Assembly: GCF_006265175.1 (NCBI RefSeq)
Contig: NZ_VDCQ01000018.1
Span: 62,001 to 126,000 of the forward strand
Length of the DNA stretch: 64,000 bases
Source of the DNA: Paenibacillus hemerocallicola
Lineage (GTDB): Bacteria; Bacillota; Bacilli; Paenibacillales; NBRC-103111
Reading direction: 5' to 3'
Part shown: one piece after another, positions 5,486-16,974 of the stretch
How positions within the stretch are numbered: position 1 is the first letter of the stretch
How the letters are laid out: every line of letters begins with the position of its first letter
Translations under genes and position numbers: made by a program
The notes under the pieces: generated by a model
Databases searched by the model: none
What the model saw: the letters and a program-made list of their open reading frames with translations, nothing else
What the model was told of the DNA's origin: nothing

Positions 5486-8416
5486 TCACTCGCGCTTCGG
5501 CTTGAAGCCCACCGGAGGGACGCCCCAATATTTGCTGAACGCCTTGGAGAAATTTCCGGCATCCTTGAAGCCGCAACGGGAAGCGGTCTCGTATACCTTA
5601 TGGCCCGCTTCGAGCAGCTTCTTGGCCCGCGTCATCCGGATCGTCATGACGTAGTCGGAATAGGCGGCTCCGGTTTCCTTCTTGAACAGGCGGCTCAAGT
5701 GAAACGGGTGCAGGGCGAATCGCTCGGCCATCGTATTCAGCGACAAGTCCTTGTCCGGCTCGCGCTCGACGATGGCGACCAGCTCGCGGACGACCGGATG
5801 CTTCGCCGCAGGGCGGCGCTCTTCGGTGTGCCGGACGAGCCGTCCTAGGAGCCGCAGCAGCAGCTCATACCCTTGCTCGGGCGATTGGAGCTGCGCCAGC
5901 GCGGCCGTCGTATCCGCCGCTCCGCCGAATACGTCTCCGGCATCCCATCCGCTCCGCTCCGCGTGCCGGACGATCAGGTGGCAAGCATTCATGACATGCA
6001 GCGGCCAGATCGCGCTCGACGACCCGGTCTTCATTTTCGCCCTCCACCATGCCGCGAGAGCCGGTTCCGCATTATGCAGCACGCCCGTGTCCAAAGCGGC
6101 GACGAACGCTTCATCCGTTCCGTCTTCTCCTCTTCCGACGCCGCCGTCGACCGGCACTGTTCCGGAGCGACTTACGGCGGCGGGAATGCGCTTCGGCGGA
6201 TGCACGATTTCGACGTACACTTCCGATTCCCCGGATCCGGCCTCTTCCACATGCAGTCTCACCGTTCCCGCAAGCCGGTCGTATCGCCAGCCGCGGAACG
6301 GATCCGCTTTGATCCTCCTAGTCTGATCCGGACGGCGCTGTCCGCCCACCCGGACAGCCGCGGGCTTGCCCTCCATATGGACGATCAGCTCGTAGCTGCG
6401 GTTGCGGACCATACCGGCATAAGCCCCCTCGCGTCGCGAAATGCGCACGGTCGTCGTCTCGCGGTTCGCCTCGCATAGCATTCTCGTTCGGGCGAAACCT
6501 CCGTCCAAATAGTCGAAGGTGGCTCCGTCGTCCTCGTATAGCACAAACTCGCCGAGCGGGCCGGGGTAAATATCCAGAGTAAGCGTCTCTACCCGCAATT
6601 GGCCGATATAGTCCATCGACGGCCACATCGGAACGATCGCTCCGGCGCGTACGAACAGAGGGCCGCCCGCTCCCGGGGGAGCGGTGTAGGCGATCCACTG
6701 CGGACCGCTGTAGCGCTCCCCGGTCCAGTAGTCGTACCAGTTCCCTTCCGGCAAATATACTTGATCGGTATACACGGCAACCAGCAAGGAATCCCCCAGC
6801 ATGTATTGCCGGCTCAATTCTCGGCAATTCCGGTCATCGGGATACAGGAGAGGCATGGCGCGGGTAATCGGCATCCCGGTACGGGCGGCTGCATGCGCCG
6901 CCGAATACAGGTAGGGAATGAGACGATAGCGCAGCCGGGCATACCGCTGGAACAGCTCCTGCAGCGGCTGCTCCAGAAAATCCGGATGATGGAAATGATC
7001 CTGGCTGTGGATCCGCGACCATGCGAGCAAAAAATCGGAATGAATGCCCTCGCGGGTAATCAGGTGCATATTCGTCGACGCGTTGGCATGACCGGACAGC
7101 CCGTAATTCAATACGGCCGCGATCGCATGTCTGGCGTTATAAAACGTGCCCGCCGTACTGGCGACAAACTGCTGCATGCCCAAATAGCCTTTTTCCATAT
7201 GAATGACCGGCCGCTTGTTCGTCTGCCGGCGGAAGCCGAGATGCATCTGCTTGCCGAGCAAAACCGGATACAGATGGTGAAGCTCCGCGCTCGTCATGCC
7301 GTTGCCCCATATCCGGTCCGGATGGCTGAACATCGGGTTTTTCATGCTGAGAACGAAGGCGGATATGCCGTCATCGACAAACTTGCGCAAATGATCGTAC
7401 CACGCCTCCTCGGGTTCTTCGCACTCCCCGTCCGTTTTGTCCGCGGCCAACCGTTCCTCTAGCAAGGTCAGATCGTAATCGCAGCCCAGGGTCAGGCTGA
7501 GCTTGAAGCCCTGCTTCTGCAAGATGCCGATAAACGAGACTTGACGGAGAAGATCGTTCGTGCTCGTCGGGAACCGTTCCGGATGCCAGCGCTTGGCGGT
7601 CGAATAGTCGTTGACCGTCTCCATCCAATCCGCGCTCAGGCCGATCAGGTCGCAGGGCGTTCCGGACCGGCGAAATTTGATCGCGTCGTCGAGCACATCC
7701 CTGGCGCTCGACTTTACACGCGGGCAGAAGTTCAGACCGTACATCCAGATCGGCAACAGCTGCGGCTTTCCCGCAACGTCCGTATACGCTTCGAGCAGTT
7801 GGGCGTAGCCGGTTCCGACGAATAGAAACAGATCCAGCTCGCCCGACGGCCCTTCTATACTCAGAATGTCATCGGTCGCGGCGCCGATGTCGAACGTATG
7901 CCGCCACGTCGTATTCACCATGACGGCCCATCCCCCGGAGCTCATCAGAAAAGGAATGGGGGCGCTCGCCCACAAATCCTGCTCCGCCCACATCGGCACG
8001 CGCAAGCCGCGCCGATCCAACTGCTCGGGAACGACGTTGCCGAGTCCGTACAAGGACTCGTCGGCATTCAGCGAGAAGCGCGCTCCGAACCCCCCCGCCG
8101 AGCCGGACCAGGGCGGACAGCACGTGCGAAGCCGCTCCCTTCCGTCCGGACCGTACAGACGCAGCTGCCCGTCGTTCCCGTCGATTTGCAGCGTTGCCCG
8201 CCCGGCCCGTATAGTCGTGACGTCACCGCATACAACTGAGAGGCTCTCGTCTACCGACTCGGTGATAGCGTTTACAATTCGATACCGGATCAGCGGCGAC
8301 TCCGGGAAAAGCCCCGTATCATTCATCCGAATCCGAAAGGTGCCGGAAGCGACTGCATCCGCCACGATCCATCCCCCGTTCTCCAACGAAATCCGGGCAT
8401 CCGTCACTCTGTCCAT
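5486..8416 (-). CDS. GH31-like domain fused to AraC DNA-binding domain, catalytic residues substituted
   Basis: A 976-residue cytoplasmic protein with no signal peptide. Residues about 5-740 follow the glycoside hydrolase family 31 plan: N-terminal beta-sandwich, TIM barrel from about 225 to 520 (landmarks PERFPTS, KQGFKLSLTLG, GLSG, ARLRYRLIPYLYS), then beta-sandwiches including the FVLYEDDG segment. The C-terminal 100 residues (about 875-973) are an AraC-type double helix-turn-helix. The usual nucleophile motif (xDxxE after GxxGF) reads VLSMKN, placing Ser357 at the nucleophile Asp and Asn360 at the Glu. After GLSG the usual acid/base Asp is Asn449. Catalysis is therefore probably lost and the barrel may serve as a sugar sensor. 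ATG at 8416 is favoured over a GTG at 8422 by spacing from GGGGG. It is divergent from the esterase-lipoprotein operon, its likely target. Confidence 0.87.
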   Translation of the reverse strand: MDRVTDARISLENGGWIVADAVASGTFRIRMNDTGLFPESPLIRYRIVNAITESVDESLSVVCGDVTTIRAGRATLQIDGNDGQLRLYGPDGRERLRTCCPPWSGSAGGFGARFSLNADESLYGLGNVVPEQLDRRGLRVPMWAEQDLWASAPIPFLMSSGGWAVMVNTTWRHTFDIGAATDDILSIEGPSGELDLFLFVGTGYAQLLEAYTDVAGKPQLLPIWMYGLNFCPRVKSSARDVLDDAIKFRRSGTPCDLIGLSADWMETVNDYSTAKRWHPERFPTSTNDLLRQVSFIGILQKQGFKLSLTLGCDYDLTLLEERLAADKTDGECEEPEEAWYDHLRKFVDDGISAFVLSMKNPMFSHPDRIWGNGMTSAELHHLYPVLLGKQMHLGFRRQTNKRPVIHMEKGYLGMQQFVASTAGTFYNARHAIAAVLNYGLSGHANASTNMHLITREGIHSDFLLAWSRIHSQDHFHHPDFLEQPLQELFQRYARLRYRLIPYLYSAAHAAARTGMPITRAMPLLYPDDRNCRELSRQYMLGDSLLVAVYTDQVYLPEGNWYDYWTGERYSGPQWIAYTAPPGAGGPLFVRAGAIVPMWPSMDYIGQLRVETLTLDIYPGPLGEFVLYEDDGATFDYLDGGFARTRMLCEANRETTTVRISRREGAYAGMVRNRSYELIVHMEGKPAAVRVGGQRRPDQTRRIKADPFRGWRYDRLAGTVRLHVEEAGSGESEVYVEIVHPPKRIPAAVSRSGTVPVDGGVGRGEDGTDEAFVAALDTGVLHNAEPALAAWWRAKMKTGSSSAIWPLHVMNACHLIVRHAERSGWDAGDVFGGAADTTAALAQLQSPEQGYELLLRLLGRLVRHTEERRPAAKHPVVRELVAIVEREPDKDLSLNTMAERFALHPFHLSRLFKKETGAAYSDYVMTIRMTRAKKLLEAGHKVYETASRCGFKDAGNFSKAFSKYWGVPPVGFKPKRE

Positions 8417-8653
8417 CTCCACGCCCCCTTGGCGTTTTCCATTGCTTCCATCATAACATGCCGGCCAGAAAAATGTTATCGAATCACATGAAATAGCGAT
8501 GCCAAATCAGTTATCAATTCACATCCGTTCGTTATGAAATACCATATACGAGACATCTCCGCATCTTCTATACTTGGCTTACCGCGGTATAAAGATATCG
8601 ATTACCATTGCGGGGTCTTGAAAGGAAGGGAAGAAAAGGAGGGAGCGAGCCCA
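8417..8653. promoter_or_regulatory. Divergent intergenic region, GH31-AraC versus esterase operon
   Basis: This 237-bp region separates the minus-strand GH31-AraC regulator from the plus-strand esterase gene and must hold both promoters. A plus-strand open stretch runs in frame from 8534, but the strong AAAAGGAGGG site at about 8635 places the real start at 8654. It is the natural place to look for binding sites of the regulator. No clear direct-repeat operator was identified by eye. Confidence 0.45.
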
Positions 8654-10594
8654 ATGCTGCAAGATTGGGAGCAATTTCGAATCGGCATTCATGATGTAAA
8701 AGACCAGTTGAAGGATTACGTGTACGGCCATTCTTTGAAAGCGTTTGCGGATGGAGATCAAGCGCGCGATGCGGTGGCAAATACGGAGCAGCTGGAAGCC
8801 CGCCGACGGCATATGCGCGAGCTGCTGCTGGCCGGAATCGGCGGCCTTCCGACCCGGGATACGCCGCTTCGCCCGGTCACGACCGGAATTGCGGAGCGAG
8901 ACGGCTACCGCATCGAGAAGGTTATTTTTCAATCCATGCCCAGCGTGTACGTGACCGCTCACTTGTATATTCCGGACGGCCGCGTATCGCCGGGCGGAGC
9001 GGTACTGTTCGTATGCGGCCACGGGCCGGAAGGCAAGCTGTACCCGAGCTACCAGAACGTATGCCAATGTCTCGTGCGCGCCGGACTCGTCGTGCTGGCC
9101 ATCGACCCGATGGGACAGGGCGAGCGGCTTGGCTATCTCGACCGCGGAGACGACCGGCCGTTCGCGCGGCGGGTAGCGGAGCACGAGCATGCGGGCGTGC
9201 AGTGCTGGCCGCTCGGAGACGGACTGGCGCGCTATTTCATCCACGATATCGTGCGGGCCGTCGATTATTTGAGCTCCCGTCCCGAGGTCGATCCGGCCAA
9301 AATCGGCATGACGGGCAGCTCCGGGGGAGGCACGCAAACGGCGCTAGCGATGATCTGCGAGCCGCGGATCGTCGCCGCCGCTCCCGGGACGTTCATCATG
9401 AACCGGGAATCGTATTTATTCGCCGGACAGGCGCAGGACGCGGAGCAAATATGGCCGAACATGTCGGCTTGCGGCTTCGACCATGAAGATATATTGCTCG
9501 CCATGGCCCCGCGCCCGGTCATGGTGCTCGCCGTCACCGGCGACATCTTCCCGATCGAAGGCACGCGCAGGACGGTAGAGCGAAGCAAACGGTTCTGGGA
9601 CATGTACGGCTGCGGCGACCGGTTGCAGCTCGCGGAGGACGAGTCGCCGCACATGTACACGATCCCGCTGGCCCGGGCGGCCGCCTCGTTCTTCTCTCTC
9701 CATCTGCTCGGCCAACCGATCGAGGTGAATACCGACGGACTCGTCACGGAGGAAGGAAGCGACGTATGGTGCACGGCGAGCGGGCAAATTGTCGACGATT
9801 ATCCGGACGCGCGGAAAGTGTACCACGAGAACGGCGAGCGGCTGGCTCGACTGGAGCTGGCCCGCGAAGCATTGCCCGAAGCGGAGCGGCAGGCGAAGGC
9901 GCTCGCCTGGCTCGGCGGCCGGATACGCGATCCGCGCCCCGTCTGCGACCTGAACCCACGCCATCAGCGGATCGGCTCGTGGCAAGGACTGACCGTGCAG
10001 AGCAGCATCTGGTGGTCGCAGCCCGGCTTGTTCGGCCACGGCTTCCTGTTCGCCGCCGCGAACCCGGGCCCGGCGAAACGTCCGCTGACGATCGCGCTAT
10101 GGGAGGATGGCACGACACGGCTGCAAGCGCACGAAGACTGGATACGCGGCCGCTGCGCCGCCGGGGAGGCCGTTCTCGTATTGGACGTCGTCGGCAGCGG
10201 AGCGCTCGCACCGAATGCGATCAACGGCAAGCCGCTGCGCGGCGTATTCGGCACCTTGCACAAGCTGAATATGGATTTGCTGTGGCTTGGCGACAGTCTG
10301 GCCGCCTTGCGCGCCTACGATGTGCTGCGTGCCGTCGAGTTTGCCCGCCGCCTGAACGACGTAGACGCGGCGAGAATCCGCCTGTATGCCGAGGGGCGTT
10401 TCGGCGTATACGCGGAATGGGCCCATGCGCTGCTTGAGGCGGATACCGTACCGCTGGAGATCGCACAGGAATGGGAATCCGTCGCCTCGTGGGTTCGCTC
10501 GGAGTACTACGACAATACCGGCATCGGCGAATACGTGTTGCCCGGCTTGCTGCGGCATTGCGATTTGCCGGACTTGCGGGGATGGCGGAAATAA
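8654..10594 (+). CDS. Two-part alpha/beta hydrolase, acetyl-xylan-esterase-like
   Basis: A 646-residue protein without signal peptide. The N-terminal half is a complete alpha/beta hydrolase: oxyanion segment CGHGPEGK (about 121-128), nucleophile elbow GSSGGG with Ser223, Asp near 297 (TGDIFP) and His near 333 (SPHMYT). It resembles the acetyl-xylan-esterase/DUF-type hydrolases found in polysaccharide-use loci. The C-terminal half (about 440-640) looks like a second, degenerate hydrolase fold with no obvious catalytic triad. ATG at 8654 is preceded by AAGGAGGG. The solute-binding lipoprotein follows 29 bp downstream in the same operon, so the enzyme probably removes ester groups from an imported sugar. 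The substrate is not known. Confidence 0.8.
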   Translation: MLQDWEQFRIGIHDVKDQLKDYVYGHSLKAFADGDQARDAVANTEQLEARRRHMRELLLAGIGGLPTRDTPLRPVTTGIAERDGYRIEKVIFQSMPSVYVTAHLYIPDGRVSPGGAVLFVCGHGPEGKLYPSYQNVCQCLVRAGLVVLAIDPMGQGERLGYLDRGDDRPFARRVAEHEHAGVQCWPLGDGLARYFIHDIVRAVDYLSSRPEVDPAKIGMTGSSGGGTQTALAMICEPRIVAAAPGTFIMNRESYLFAGQAQDAEQIWPNMSACGFDHEDILLAMAPRPVMVLAVTGDIFPIEGTRRTVERSKRFWDMYGCGDRLQLAEDESPHMYTIPLARAAASFFSLHLLGQPIEVNTDGLVTEEGSDVWCTASGQIVDDYPDARKVYHENGERLARLELAREALPEAERQAKALAWLGGRIRDPRPVCDLNPRHQRIGSWQGLTVQSSIWWSQPGLFGHGFLFAAANPGPAKRPLTIALWEDGTTRLQAHEDWIRGRCAAGEAVLVLDVVGSGALAPNAINGKPLRGVFGTLHKLNMDLLWLGDSLAALRAYDVLRAVEFARRLNDVDAARIRLYAEGRFGVYAEWAHALLEADTVPLEIAQEWESVASWVRSEYYDNTGIGEYVLPGLLRHCDLPDLRGWRK

Positions 10595-10623
10595 GAACCA
10601 TATTCAATCAGGGGGGAATCACG

Positions 10624-11970
10624 ATGCTTGCCAAAAAAATGTCCGGAATCGCTCTATGCCTCGCGCTCGCTGCAGCGGTTACGACCGCCTGCGGCCGGGG
10701 AGACGCGGCCCCGCAACCAAACGCGGGGACCGAAGACGCCGCGCGGGAAGCGGCGAAGAAAGCGGCGGAAGGTCCCGCGGAGATCGTCTTTTACACGTCC
10801 AACGGGGACTCCGAAGAAAACTTCAACCGGCTGTACGGCGACGCGCTGCGCAAAAAGTTTCCGCAATACACGATCAAGTACATTTTGAGCGGCGCCAAGG
10901 GCCAGTCGCTGGAGACGCTGCTCGCTTCCAAAACCCGGTTCGACGTCTTCATGCAAGGTCCGGGATTTTTCGAATCTCAAGCGTATCCGGCCAGCATCCA
11001 GTACGATATGACGGCTCTGATCAAAACGCATCAACTCGATTTAAGCCGTCTGGACCAGGCGTCCGTGGAATACGTCAAGCAAAGCTCGGAGGGCAAAGCT
11101 TATTTTCTGCCCATTCAACTGGAAGGCATGGTGCTTTACTACAACAAGTCATTGTTCGACAAATTCGGCGTCCCTTACCCTACCGACGGCATGACCTGGG
11201 AGCAGATGTGGGACAAGGCGAAGCTGCTGACGCGCAAGGAAGGCGGGGTGCAATATTTCGGCTTCGGCACGAACTCGAGCACGATCCAGGGCATGAACCC
11301 GCTCTCCATTCCGCTCGCCGATCCGAAGACGGATACGCCCACGATCAACAAGGATGAGCGGTGGAAACGGTTCTATGACTATTTCTACGAGCAGCCGAAC
11401 AAATTGCCGGGCTATCAGGATGCGATTCAGGCGATCAAAGGCTTCCCTACGCTCGATATGTTCGTCAAGGACCAGACGGTAGCGATATTCGCCTATCAGT
11501 CCGGGCTGATCAACGTCTGGGAGGAGCAGCTGAAGGCCTTGAACTGGGATATCGTCGCGCTGCCGCCAATGCCCGGACAGCCGGGAGTAGGCAGCATGGC
11601 GACGCCGAAGCTGTTCGGGATTACGTCCATGGCCAAGGACAAGGACGCGGCGATGATCGCCATCCAGTATTTGCTGTCCGACGAGCACCAGAAAGAGCTG
11701 GCGCGCAAGGGCATCACGCCGATCGTCACGACCGATGCGGTCAAGAAGGAGCTGGGCAAGGACTCCGTATACAAGGACCGCAACTGGAATGCGCTCATGC
11801 ATTACAAGTTCGCCCCGCTTGCCCTCAGACCGGCTTATTACTCGCAGCTCAATGCGATTTACCAGAAGCATTTCAAAGCGGCCTCCCTCGGGCAGACCGA
11901 TCTGAACAGCGCGCTGCGCGCCGCCGAGGAAGAATCGGTCAAAGCGATCGCCGAGTTCAAGAACAAATAA
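10624..11970 (+). CDS. ABC-type sugar-binding lipoprotein, orphan (SBP 1)
   Basis: A 448-residue extracellular solute-binding protein, family 1. The signal peptide ends in a lipobox with Cys23 (VTTAC), so it is lipid-anchored. The mature part has the usual two-lobe layout, including the segment FGVPYPTDGMTW shared with four other lipoproteins in this window and a C-terminal LNSALRAAEEE. ATG at 10624 follows a GGGGGGAA ribosome site. It is the second gene of the esterase operon. No permease or ATPase gene is nearby, so its transporter partner must be elsewhere, or it may present ligand to a sensor. Confidence 0.9.
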   Translation: MLAKKMSGIALCLALAAAVTTACGRGDAAPQPNAGTEDAAREAAKKAAEGPAEIVFYTSNGDSEENFNRLYGDALRKKFPQYTIKYILSGAKGQSLETLLASKTRFDVFMQGPGFFESQAYPASIQYDMTALIKTHQLDLSRLDQASVEYVKQSSEGKAYFLPIQLEGMVLYYNKSLFDKFGVPYPTDGMTWEQMWDKAKLLTRKEGGVQYFGFGTNSSTIQGMNPLSIPLADPKTDTPTINKDERWKRFYDYFYEQPNKLPGYQDAIQAIKGFPTLDMFVKDQTVAIFAYQSGLINVWEEQLKALNWDIVALPPMPGQPGVGSMATPKLFGITSMAKDKDAAMIAIQYLLSDEHQKELARKGITPIVTTDAVKKELGKDSVYKDRNWNALMHYKFAPLALRPAYYSQLNAIYQKHFKAASLGQTDLNSALRAAEEESVKAIAEFKNK

Positions 11971-13619: not shown

Positions 13620-15599
13620 TCACAATAAATGAACGCCCTCGACCCGAATGTTGTACTGTCCGGAGACGGTTCCGTTCAACACGGTTTCCGCTTGCAGGAT
13701 GGAGCCGGCCGGAACATAAGCAGCCGCGTTCAGAGCCGTGGCTGCCCCCGGCGCGGCCCGCATGCTAACGAGTTGTGCCGGATTGCCGACCCATCCGACC
13801 GAAAAGTCGGGAGTGCCTCCCGCAGGAGCCGCCGTCGGGGTGACGATGATTTTTCCGACGATCATGCCCCGGTATGGCGACTGATCGAACGTGTGAAACT
13901 GCCCGGACTCGACGTTCAAGGTCAAACCGCAGCTTAACGGATAGATCGCGTTGCTCAGCGTGTCGATTACGGCATTGTTCGAATAATACGCCGGGCTGGC
14001 AACGCGAAACTCCGGGCTGATCACGGTGTTGTTCCCGGATATGATAATCGCGGAGTGCATGGCGGCCGGGATCGATTTCACGACGGTCATTTTGCCTATC
14101 GTACAATTATGGCCTTTGACCAAAATGCCGGTCAGCTTATCCACTCCGGCATGATCCCCTCTTGCGACCAGTGTCAAATCGTCCACATAACAGTTGGTGG
14201 AGCCGGTCCACAACGCGACGGCGGAGCAGGCGGTATCCCCGTTCTGCAAAGGCCATGCCGTCAAGTTCATCCCCCAGCCGTCGACCGCAAGTCCCTTCAC
14301 CGCCACTCGGGGCGTGCTGTTGAACGCCGCCGCATAGCGGGCCGCGCGGATGACCTGGTTGTCGATGAAATGCGCATTCATCCCGTGCTGGGTGCCGAAT
14401 CCCGTTACGCAGTCGATAGCGGTGCAGCCGACGATCCGGTTCATCCACGTGCCGTCCCGCAGCTCTTCGGGAATGTTTGTCGACTGCTTGATCTGGAAAG
14501 AAGAATTGCCCGCCGTCCCCATATATTTTTCGGCGATGCAGCCGGAAATCTCGCATCCTACCGTACCGTTCATATCAAAGGCGTGTCCGGAATGATCGTA
14601 AACGTAACTGTGAAGCACCTTTTGCCCGGTCGTCTGCTCCCAGCTCCGATTCGTTACAATGTCGCCCGATTTGTAGCCGGGGCCGATCAGGACGAAGCCG
14701 AATTGGTAATGATCGAGCCGGCATTTGTCGAAGCCGCTGTTTTTGCTGCCGATCGACTCCCAAGCAAACGGCCTGTGCGTCACGCCGACGCCTTTGCCGC
14801 CGATGATCCAAGTGTCGTCGCATTCATAGAGGAGCACGGGCAAATCTTTGCCGTTCTCGACAATGAGGCCGGACAAGGTCATGTCCTTGCATCCGTTCAG
14901 CCGCAACGTGACGAGAATGCCCGCCCCGACGGCATCCTTCGCATCTTCGACCCGCATCCCTTGGATGGAGCCGCTGCAGTTGTCGAACACGGCGCTGTCC
15001 GCGTTATCGTGGACGAACACGAGCCCCGCTTCCGGACCAAATTCCGCGTCGATCGCCGCATCGGATACGGAAAACGGCCTGCATGGATAAGTGCCCGCGA
15101 ATCGGACCGGAAATCCCGAAGCGAAAGCGAAGGCTACCCCGTCGGTAGGATCGGGGCCGACCGCTCCCAAGGCTTCGGCGCGGATTCTGCCCAAGACGAT
15201 CGTTTCCCATCGCCCCGGCGTCCCGTCACCGCCAAACGGATCGTGCACCGCGCCACTTGACGGCTTCGCGCTGTCCGGCACCCAGCGCAAAAACTTTTCT
15301 CCGCCGTCCCCTGCCGCTCCATAACCGGCTATAAACACGATGCGCCCCGGCGTTCGAAGGTTCGGTGGCAAATCGAGCAGCTCCTCTACCGAATCCGCAA
15401 CGAGAATAAGCTCGGGGAAGCCCGCGCCTCCGTTTCCTCCCGGGCCGTACATGTGATGGGTAACGGTTTCCATGAACGAGCTGGCTTGCGCCGGCCCGTC
15501 TCCTCCGGACAAGATGCCGCCTGCCGCCGCGGCGACGCCGGTCATTCCGATCGCGGCCAGCAGCTTGCGGCGCGTTATTCGGGAACTATCCGCCGACAT
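13620..15599 (-). CDS. Tat-exported right-handed beta-helix (pectate-lyase-like) protein 1
   Basis: A 659-residue exported protein. The N-terminus carries a twin-arginine signal (TRRKLLAAIG followed by an Ala/Gly-rich stretch to about residue 40). The body has short imperfect repeats rich in Gly, Asn and small hydrophobics (for example GCIAEKYMGTAGNSSF), typical of parallel beta-helix enzymes acting on polysaccharides. No known catalytic signature could be placed, so it is not assigned to a polysaccharide lyase or glycoside hydrolase family. ATG at 15599 follows GGGGGAGG. It lies 28 bp downstream of a solute-binding lipoprotein gene on the same strand, forming an operon. The same pairing recurs at 39-43 kb. 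Confidence 0.8.
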   Translation of the reverse strand: MSADSSRITRRKLLAAIGMTGVAAAAGGILSGGDGPAQASSFMETVTHHMYGPGGNGGAGFPELILVADSVEELLDLPPNLRTPGRIVFIAGYGAAGDGGEKFLRWVPDSAKPSSGAVHDPFGGDGTPGRWETIVLGRIRAEALGAVGPDPTDGVAFAFASGFPVRFAGTYPCRPFSVSDAAIDAEFGPEAGLVFVHDNADSAVFDNCSGSIQGMRVEDAKDAVGAGILVTLRLNGCKDMTLSGLIVENGKDLPVLLYECDDTWIIGGKGVGVTHRPFAWESIGSKNSGFDKCRLDHYQFGFVLIGPGYKSGDIVTNRSWEQTTGQKVLHSYVYDHSGHAFDMNGTVGCEISGCIAEKYMGTAGNSSFQIKQSTNIPEELRDGTWMNRIVGCTAIDCVTGFGTQHGMNAHFIDNQVIRAARYAAAFNSTPRVAVKGLAVDGWGMNLTAWPLQNGDTACSAVALWTGSTNCYVDDLTLVARGDHAGVDKLTGILVKGHNCTIGKMTVVKSIPAAMHSAIIISGNNTVISPEFRVASPAYYSNNAVIDTLSNAIYPLSCGLTLNVESGQFHTFDQSPYRGMIVGKIIVTPTAAPAGGTPDFSVGWVGNPAQLVSMRAAPGAATALNAAAYVPAGSILQAETVLNGTVSGQYNIRVEGVHLL

Positions 15600-15627
15600 A
15601 GATATTCCTCCCCCGTATTCGTAATGA

Positions 15628-16974
15628 TTACCTTTTAGCCTCATCCAGCAATTTCTTCACTTCTTCCTCCGCTTCGCGAAGAGCGGTATTCATATCTTTC
15701 GAACCGGTAATCAACTGAAACGGAACATTATTCAGGACGTTCTGCACTTTCAGATTATATTTCGAATATGCAGGAAGGGCCGCGTAGTCGTTGTAATAGA
15801 CCGCCTTCCAGTTTTTGTCCTTGTATTCGGATTCCTGTCCGTAGGCGTTTCTGACGGCTTCATCTTTAATGACCGGCATCATCCCCCTTTTGGAAAATTC
15901 GTCCTGATTTTGTCGGGATACGAGAAAACGAATGGCGTTCATCGCCGCTTCTTTCCGCTTCGAGATCGAGGTAATCGCCAATGTGAACGGGGCCGCGGCC
16001 ATGCCGAGCTTCGGTTGTTCCTTGAACACCGGAAGCGAGACAAGGTCCCAATCGACATTTTTCATCTCCAGCGTAGTGAACGGGGTCTGCGAATTGTACA
16101 CGAACATCGCCAAATCTTGACTGTTCGTGAAGTCTCTGATGTTGGGCAGACGTTTCAATTGAAACGACTTGCTCTTGTACGCTTCCTCGGCGCCCGGTGC
16201 CAGGAAATACGTTTGAATCAGCTTGCTCCACGCCTCATGCCCGAATGTCGGTTTATCCGTCGCAGGGTCGAGATAAGGCTGGGAGAGCTGATTGCCGCGA
16301 AACATGTGCGGAGGGGACGCGGAGAAGCCGAGAATTTGTTTGTCGTTGTCCTTGCGGGTAAGCTTGCGAGCCATCGCGGTCGTCTCCTCCCACGTCATGC
16401 CGTCGATCGGATAAGGGACGCCAAAGCGATTAAAAATCATTTTGTTGTAGAACATAACCTGAACCATGTTCGTTACCGGAAGCGCATACAACTTACCATT
16501 GCCGGAGAGGCGGATACCGTCAATCAAGGTAGGCTCGAATTGGCTTATATCGATTTGCTGCGTTTTGACCAGCTCCGCCATGTCGTATTCCAGCTTATTC
16601 TCCATGATCAATCCAAAAATATTGGAAATGGATGAGAATAAAACATCAACCGGCTGGTTTTGTACAAGCAGTTCTTCCAGCGTTTGCCCCTTTTTGGACT
16701 GAATGTACGTGATCGTATAGTTCGGAAATTTCTTCCTCAATGCGTTCCCGAACAAATTGTCGAACGCTTCGGGCGGATCTCCCGTGTTGGAGTGAAAGAC
16801 GAGTTCGACCGGCTCGTCGTCCAGATTGGCCGCTTGCCTGCCTTGGCCGTCGGAGGCAGGCGGAATAGCAGGTTCGGTCGTGCCGGACGAGCCGCAGGCC
16901 GATAAGGCGATCGATGATGCCAAGACGGCCCAAGCGAATCGAAACGGCTGGAAGCGATGGGTGACACGGGTCAT
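15628..16974 (-). CDS. ABC-type sugar-binding lipoprotein, orphan (SBP 2)
   Basis: A 448-residue family 1 solute-binding protein with a lipobox Cys27 (ALSAC). It shares FGVPYPIDGMTW and the C-terminal MNTALREAEEE pattern with SBP 1 and with SBPs 3, 5 and 6, so these are paralogues. The ATG is preceded by AAGGAGGGGG. It is first in an operon with the Tat-exported beta-helix protein. No permease gene is nearby. A reasonable guess is that it binds an oligosaccharide released by, or bound to, the beta-helix protein. Confidence 0.9.
   Translation of the reverse strand: MTRVTHRFQPFRFAWAVLASSIALSACGSSGTTEPAIPPASDGQGRQAANLDDEPVELVFHSNTGDPPEAFDNLFGNALRKKFPNYTITYIQSKKGQTLEELLVQNQPVDVLFSSISNIFGLIMENKLEYDMAELVKTQQIDISQFEPTLIDGIRLSGNGKLYALPVTNMVQVMFYNKMIFNRFGVPYPIDGMTWEETTAMARKLTRKDNDKQILGFSASPPHMFRGNQLSQPYLDPATDKPTFGHEAWSKLIQTYFLAPGAEEAYKSKSFQLKRLPNIRDFTNSQDLAMFVYNSQTPFTTLEMKNVDWDLVSLPVFKEQPKLGMAAAPFTLAITSISKRKEAAMNAIRFLVSRQNQDEFSKRGMMPVIKDEAVRNAYGQESEYKDKNWKAVYYNDYAALPAYSKYNLKVQNVLNNVPFQLITGSKDMNTALREAEEEVKKLLDEAKR

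Follow-up and report, generated by a model that had tools for sequence, protein, structure and literature searches.

The window, a 64-kb stretch of the 9.65-Mb genome of Paenibacillus hemerocallicola (G000), contains on its reverse strand a gene for a protein of 976 amino acids (5486..8416, P0001, delimited by ORF and Pfam analysis) in which a GH31 region and an AraC-type DNA-binding domain are joined. The GH31 region occupies residues 1–739 (6200..8416, by Pfam and structure match) and is composed of a mutarotase-like domain, a TIM barrel, a C-terminal domain and DUF5110, followed on the same strand by a YesN-type helical linker (residues 765–885, 5762..6124) and by the AraC domain itself (residues 886–973, 5498..5761, Pfam HTH_18). 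Divergently from it, on the forward strand, lies a gene for an alpha/beta-hydrolase with an AXE1/Peptidase_S9-like Pfam match, an esterase and the putative target of the regulator (8654..10594), and 27 bp past its end begins a gene for a solute-binding lipoprotein of the SBP_bac type (10621..11970), the second gene of the putative operon.

The complete GH31 domain order was found over residues 1–739 by Pfam, and structure prediction followed by comparison with GH31 structures, as had been proposed beforehand, gave this region a GH31 fold, so that the sequence-only reading of a full-length GH31-like region and an AraC domain in one chain is borne out. The best sequence match in the PDB was 6jr8 (FjDex31A dextranase, E 3e-62), and domain order and predicted fold are likewise those of GH31 glycosidases such as FjDex31A (6jr6/6jr8), Agd31B and YicI. 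The AraC-type double helix-turn-helix exceeded the Pfam cut-offs for both HTH_18 (66.2 bits, cut-off 33.6) and HTH_AraC (33.9 bits, cut-off 26.6).

In other genomes, frames some 540 residues long match residues 770–973; one example, from locus L038, is a YesN-type response regulator with the order REC, GGDEF_2, linker and HTH_18. Identity over this stretch, which covers linker and DNA-binding domain, is 35%. This homology suggests that the linker and DNA-binding domain of the window protein most likely derive from a YesN-type response regulator. L038 has a Response_reg match, whereas Pfam finds none in the window protein, where the GH31 region most likely stands in place of the receiver, which would make the protein a one-component rather than a two-component regulator.

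Catalytic positions and the family of fusions

Three aspartates of GH31 enzymes are replaced in the window protein. The nucleophile position is taken by Ser357 (codon 7346..7348, reverse strand), as had been claimed before: in the PDB alignment this residue is opposite an Asp in 6jr6 and an Ala in 6jr8, the latter being the deposited mutant D412A (position 414 when the construct sequence is counted), and in the family alignment the motif FKLDGARQ of stand-alone GH31s from related genomes corresponds to FVLSMKNP. The acid/base position is Thr424 (codon 7145..7147, reverse strand, PDB and family alignment), since WAGDTGGG of the stand-alones aligns with TAGTFYNA, and this placement is also backed by spacing: the two positions are 67 residues apart in the window protein and 73 in 6jr6, and the catalytic pairs are given as D463/D520 for MYORG (PMC9491548) and as D341/D394 for LlGH31_u1 (PMC9061262). 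Asn449, which had been named as the acid/base residue, belongs instead to a separate third Asp column (codon 7070..7072, reverse strand, family alignment) where SCDM of the stand-alones reads STNM, and it was rejected for the acid/base role; the wider claim that both catalytic aspartates are gone thus holds, with the second of them at Thr424. A missing Glu at Asn360 was also considered as a mark of lost catalysis and was dropped, as active-looking relatives lack a Glu there too. In contrast with GH31 glycosidases, a protein with these three replacements and an added AraC domain is not expected to be catalytic, and glycosidase activity is probably lacking. The window group has gained acidic residues on the catalytic face (Asp263 and Asp473), and given these an altered activity may be possible.

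A profile search of G000 gave 19 GH31-barrel matches, and 14 frames of more than 750 residues belong to the GH31 group of the window protein, namely 11 fusions and three stand-alones. The search for other GH31-AraC fusions recommended in the sequence-only reading resulted in a sample of 48 fusions and 10 stand-alones from eight genomes: 11 fusions in G000, 12 in Paenibacillus ginsengarvi (G001), 10 in G002 (plus a broken copy in L053), 11 in P. mesophilus (G003), these three genomes being of the same genus as that of the window, and one each in G026, G033, G093 and G126. The AraC part was recognised in all 48 by profile and alignment, and directly by Pfam in the five fusions tested. Catalytic columns were compared in 47 barrel-bearing fusions, the G093 fusion (L086) being left out because its frame holds no barrel. 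All 10 stand-alones have the two catalytic aspartates together, and none of the 47 fusions does; taken singly, the nucleophile Asp is found in all ten stand-alones and in two fusions (L013 and L079), the acid/base column holds an Asp in all ten and in two others (L080 and L055), and the third Asp is kept in 24 of the 47. The two fusions that retain the nucleophile (L013, 7963–11073, and L079, 7788–10823) have Thr at the acid/base column, and on this pattern they are possible intermediates between enzyme and sensor. The excluded L086 frame (8160–9926, 588 aa) has a GH31 C-terminal domain, DUF5110 and an AraC domain, with no match to a mutarotase-like domain or barrel.

At E 1e-100, eight of 104 genomes of the taxonomic family matched, the window's own included (eight candidates scored per genome); the identical eight were the matches among 392 genomes of the order at 1e-60, and the window's own genome was the sole match among 398 drawn from the phylum (two candidates scored per genome in both cases). 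G004, although of the same genus, gave no match. A scan for related loci gave 12, three of them matching along the full length. The G002 copy closest to the window protein (L053, 7777–9810, 87% identical over residues 1–598) is split into separate ORFs and seems broken.

Stand-alone GH31s often lie close to fusions, with nine of the ten in the same fetched locus as a fusion (the exception being L009), a count to be read with the fact that outside G000 the loci were fetched around fusions. For G000–G003, eight of nine stand-alone entries, one of which is a fragment, have a fusion no more than about 10 kb away, and some pairs of fusion and stand-alone recur across genomes (L010/L057/L080, L066/L077 and L011/L068). 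The window locus has no stand-alone GH31.

A tree built without the catalytic columns groups the stand-alones in a single clade (support 98). In the free tree rooted with 12 outgroup GH31s, all of which keep the nucleophile, acid/base and third aspartates, the stand-alones branch from within the fusions, a topology that would imply an already fused ancestor and a subsequent loss of its AraC domain; with four outgroups, a tree constrained to hold the fusions in one clade was 4.88 lnL above the free search (p-AU 0.68). Both histories, a single clade of fusions and a fused ancestor shedding its AraC domain, are compatible with these trees, in which long branches are in play, and one fusion event for the whole family is compatible with them, not proved.

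Purifying selection acts on the window protein. Overall dN/dS is about 0.20 against L071 (0.098/0.502), about 0.20 against L072 (0.105/0.526) and about 0.14 against L061 (0.142/1.04), and for the barrel 0.14 (0.067/0.465), 0.14 (0.069/0.488) and 0.06 (0.075/1.166), respectively, with several short stretches yielding no value. Identities to the same three proteins are 86–88% in the barrel, 85–91% in the AraC domain, 77–88% in the C-terminal GH31 domains, 60–83% in the mutarotase-like domain and 69–75% in the linker. The catalytic face was defined as 65 positions picked by the analyst at the strand ends of the structure model. Of the positions invariant among the enzymes, all four window-group proteins have lost 29 of the 45 that belong to this face and 29 of the 115 that lie in the barrel outside it (p 7e-6). 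Still, 51 of the 65 face positions are invariant within the group, compared with 168 of 224 for the remainder of the barrel, as would fit pockets that have been reshaped and continue to be used. The four proteins differ at the nucleophile position (S, S, F, S) and agree at Thr424 and Asn449. Among 11 groups of fusions, conservation is higher on the face than off it in nine and lower in groups H and I.

The predicted control region and its conservation

Between the regulator and the divergent operon (8417–8653) lie three exact direct repeats of the form ATGN8TAAC, a predicted operator, all read on the reverse strand: ATGTGATTCGATAAC (8475..8489), ATGTGAATTGATAAC (8510..8524) and ATGGTATTTCATAAC (8531..8545), the last being 21 bp from ATGTGAATTGATAAC. 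An imperfect half-site, ATGGTAATCGATATC (8594..8608, reverse strand), is exact in P. mesophilus locus L099. A promoter scan listed a promoter-like ATAACA-18-TATGAT for the regulator (8450..8479, reverse strand), and its -35-like hexamer is overlapped by ATGTGATTCGATAAC. For the divergent operon the conserved TATACT (8569..8574, forward strand) is a putative -10, and the half-site at 8531–8545 abuts the place where, counted from it, a -35 would lie; the scan did not list a promoter with this TATACT. The esterase start appears best placed at 8654, after AAAGGAGGG.

Exact ATGN8TAAC occurs four times in the window, against a chance expectation of 4.2 for its whole length, and three of the four are upstream of the regulator. 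In the upstream regions of all 48 fusions there are 26 exact half-sites in forward orientation, spread over 18 regions, and one in reverse, compared with a forward mean of 0.585 and a maximum of 4 in 200 dinucleotide shuffles of the same regions, a contrast that should be read knowing that the consensus had been picked by eye from those very regions before enrichment was counted there, and that orthologs are not independent. The regions preceding 441 other genes in these loci contain six forward and 27 reverse half-sites; 19 of the latter, by the analyst's count, belong to a gene divergent from a fusion and are therefore the same sites. An exact half-site is absent from thirty of the 48 regions, so that for many paralogs different sequences or targets have to be assumed. 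In a sister paralog (L012, L073 and L062) a similar repeat layout with a -10 precedes a gene for a beta-helix-type protein and not an esterase, which we read as a kept control region with a different target gene.

G000, G001 and G003 each contain a single exact 21-bp tandem, in G000 within the window and in G001 before the ortholog L071; G002 has none. When one mismatch was allowed there were 18 hits in the four genomes and 14 for the reversed control, and four of the 18 flank, on both sides, fusions of G002 C9 and G003 C3. The G003 tandem lies in L099, a site where no fusion had been collected; it precedes orthologs of the window esterase (89% identical) and binding protein (92%) and is part of an array of four exact half-sites (8780–9040). 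The adjacent regulator gene is missing there, with no fusion ORF of at least 150 aa, and a homolog 75% identical to the window regulator is encoded elsewhere in G003 (L061). This site without a neighbouring regulator indicates that the repeats stay with the target operon. A short stretch of L099 resembles, by eye, a remnant of the regulator.

Sensor reading, alternatives and gene neighbourhood

We consider it probable that the window protein is a cytoplasmic one-component sugar sensor, made of a catalytically dead GH31 and a YesN-type linker with its AraC domain, and that it works as follows. An imported saccharide or glycoside would be bound uncleaved by the remodelled GH31 pocket, its binding would alter the linker or the dimer state, and the AraC domain would then occupy the tandem ATGN8TAAC half-sites in 8475–8545. 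From there the regulator may act on its own promoter, whose -35-like hexamer is overlapped, and on the divergent operon, whose -35 place the array abuts. The regulator reading and the control of this operon, as put forward in the sequence-only reading, are supported by the pattern among paralogs, by purifying selection on the barrel and by repeats that are kept with the operon; the esterase and binding-protein genes stand as predicted targets. Weighing against the sensor reading are Asp263 and Asp473 on the face, the thirty fusion upstream regions that lack an exact half-site, the counts for the tandem with one mismatch and the free rooted tree.

As to its origin, a GH31 enzyme gene would have been duplicated and fused to a regulator, and the fusions would then have multiplied to 10–12 copies per genome in one Paenibacillus clade. 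We lean, on balance, towards the broader view that a single duplication and fusion gave rise to a new class of transcription factors, pseudo-glycosidase AraC regulators, with 10–12 copies per genome in this clade, each dead site being remodelled in its own way and reading a different saccharide, and some still paired with an active enzyme.

It is unlikely that the protein is a bifunctional enzyme and regulator, whose GH31 part still acts on a glycoside through relocated carboxylates so that turnover or product sets the regulatory state. Asp263 and Asp473 would be candidates for such carboxylates, the four fusions with one catalytic Asp point the same way, and active-looking stand-alones nested among fusions would fit an ancestral bifunctional protein; both carboxylate columns are nevertheless replaced in the window protein, no fusion keeps the pair, and the nucleophile column varies even within the window group. 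Hardly more credible is a GH31 part that serves as a scaffold or protein-interaction module without a small ligand, for instance by pairing with a stand-alone GH31 or as a dimerisation body, with partner proteins controlling the AraC part. The frequent adjacency of stand-alones to fusions favours it, in loci mostly fetched around fusions, while it is opposed by a face at least as conserved as the rest of the barrel in nine of 11 groups and by a window locus that lacks a stand-alone partner. That the fusion is functionless, decaying and kept by recent duplication is very improbable: copies are broken or missing in relatives (L053 in G002, none left at L099) and catalytic residues vary freely among paralogs, but dN/dS is 0.14–0.20 over the full length, barrel and AraC domain are conserved, 48 fusions are present in eight genomes and the upstream repeats are conserved as well.

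The sensor that we propose can be compared with several known systems. With YesN-type response regulators it shares a homologous linker and DNA-binding domain, the receiver's place being taken by GH31. Like the AraC/XylS one-component sugar regulators AraC, MelR and RhaS it has a C-terminal HTH_18 and candidate tandem direct half-sites at 21 bp beside a -35, and AraC's own half-sites are likewise 21 bp apart; unlike them, its sensor is a dead glycosidase of 740 residues rather than a cupin. Sugar sensors that are copies or relatives of catabolic enzymes also include yeast Gal3 and Gal80 and bacterial ROK repressors, which have other folds, whereas the dead enzyme of the window carries its own DNA-binding domain and occurs in 10–12 copies per genome. 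If the broader view is true, the family would parallel, with one-component proteins, the expanded set of glycan sensors found in Bacteroides. Pseudo-enzymes are familiar as signal receptors among kinases; to our knowledge, glycosidase pseudo-enzymes acting as transcription factors are hardly documented. Enzyme copies as sensors are thus already known, and a dead GH31 as an AraC-type sensor is apparently new: in the literature searched, mostly without subscription papers and preprints, we found no description of GH31-AraC or glycosidase-derived regulators and, for P. ginsengarvi, nothing about GH31-AraC proteins, and the accessible part of the review PMC10766802 has nothing on glycosidase-derived regulators.

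Genomes that hold intact-looking copies beside dead ones, with an operator and a target predicted as well, allow the proposed step from enzyme to sensor to be tested directly. If the proposal is true, the GH31 pocket could be used as a sugar-biosensor module, and counting fusions as GH31 enzymes would inflate the apparent alpha-glycosidase content (in G000, 14 long GH31 frames belong to the group and 11 of them are fusions).

A further observation counts against the sensing of an imported sugar: no ABC permease was found at the G000 fusion loci among the matches listed (150 of 219 candidates scored), which leaves the entry of the ligand without an explanation. For 37 of the 48 fusions a solute-binding lipoprotein is encoded no more than 6 kb away, but such genes were rejected as fusion-specific neighbours, 42% being expected by chance on the basis of the roughly 445 first-look candidates in G000 and the enrichment being modest (binomial p 1e-6, with orthologs that are not independent). 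A first look at that genome gave 445 candidates for SBP_bac_1 (of which 150 were scored, each above the cut-off) against 219 for permeases (150 scored); apparently, solute-binding lipoproteins that lack a permease of their own, e.g. 10621–11970 and 15628–16974, are very numerous in it. Other recurring neighbours of the fusions are Gfo/Idh/MocA oxidoreductases, FAD oxidoreductases and beta-helix proteins. Proteins of 540–690 aa are also encoded beside fusions, at 13620–15644 of the window (reverse strand) and in L012 (5712–7568), L015 (6765–8399) and L072 (4114–6009); of seven tested, four, including that of the window, have no Pfam match and three are pectate-lyase-like beta-helix proteins, and several have, by eye, a twin-arginine-like N-terminus.
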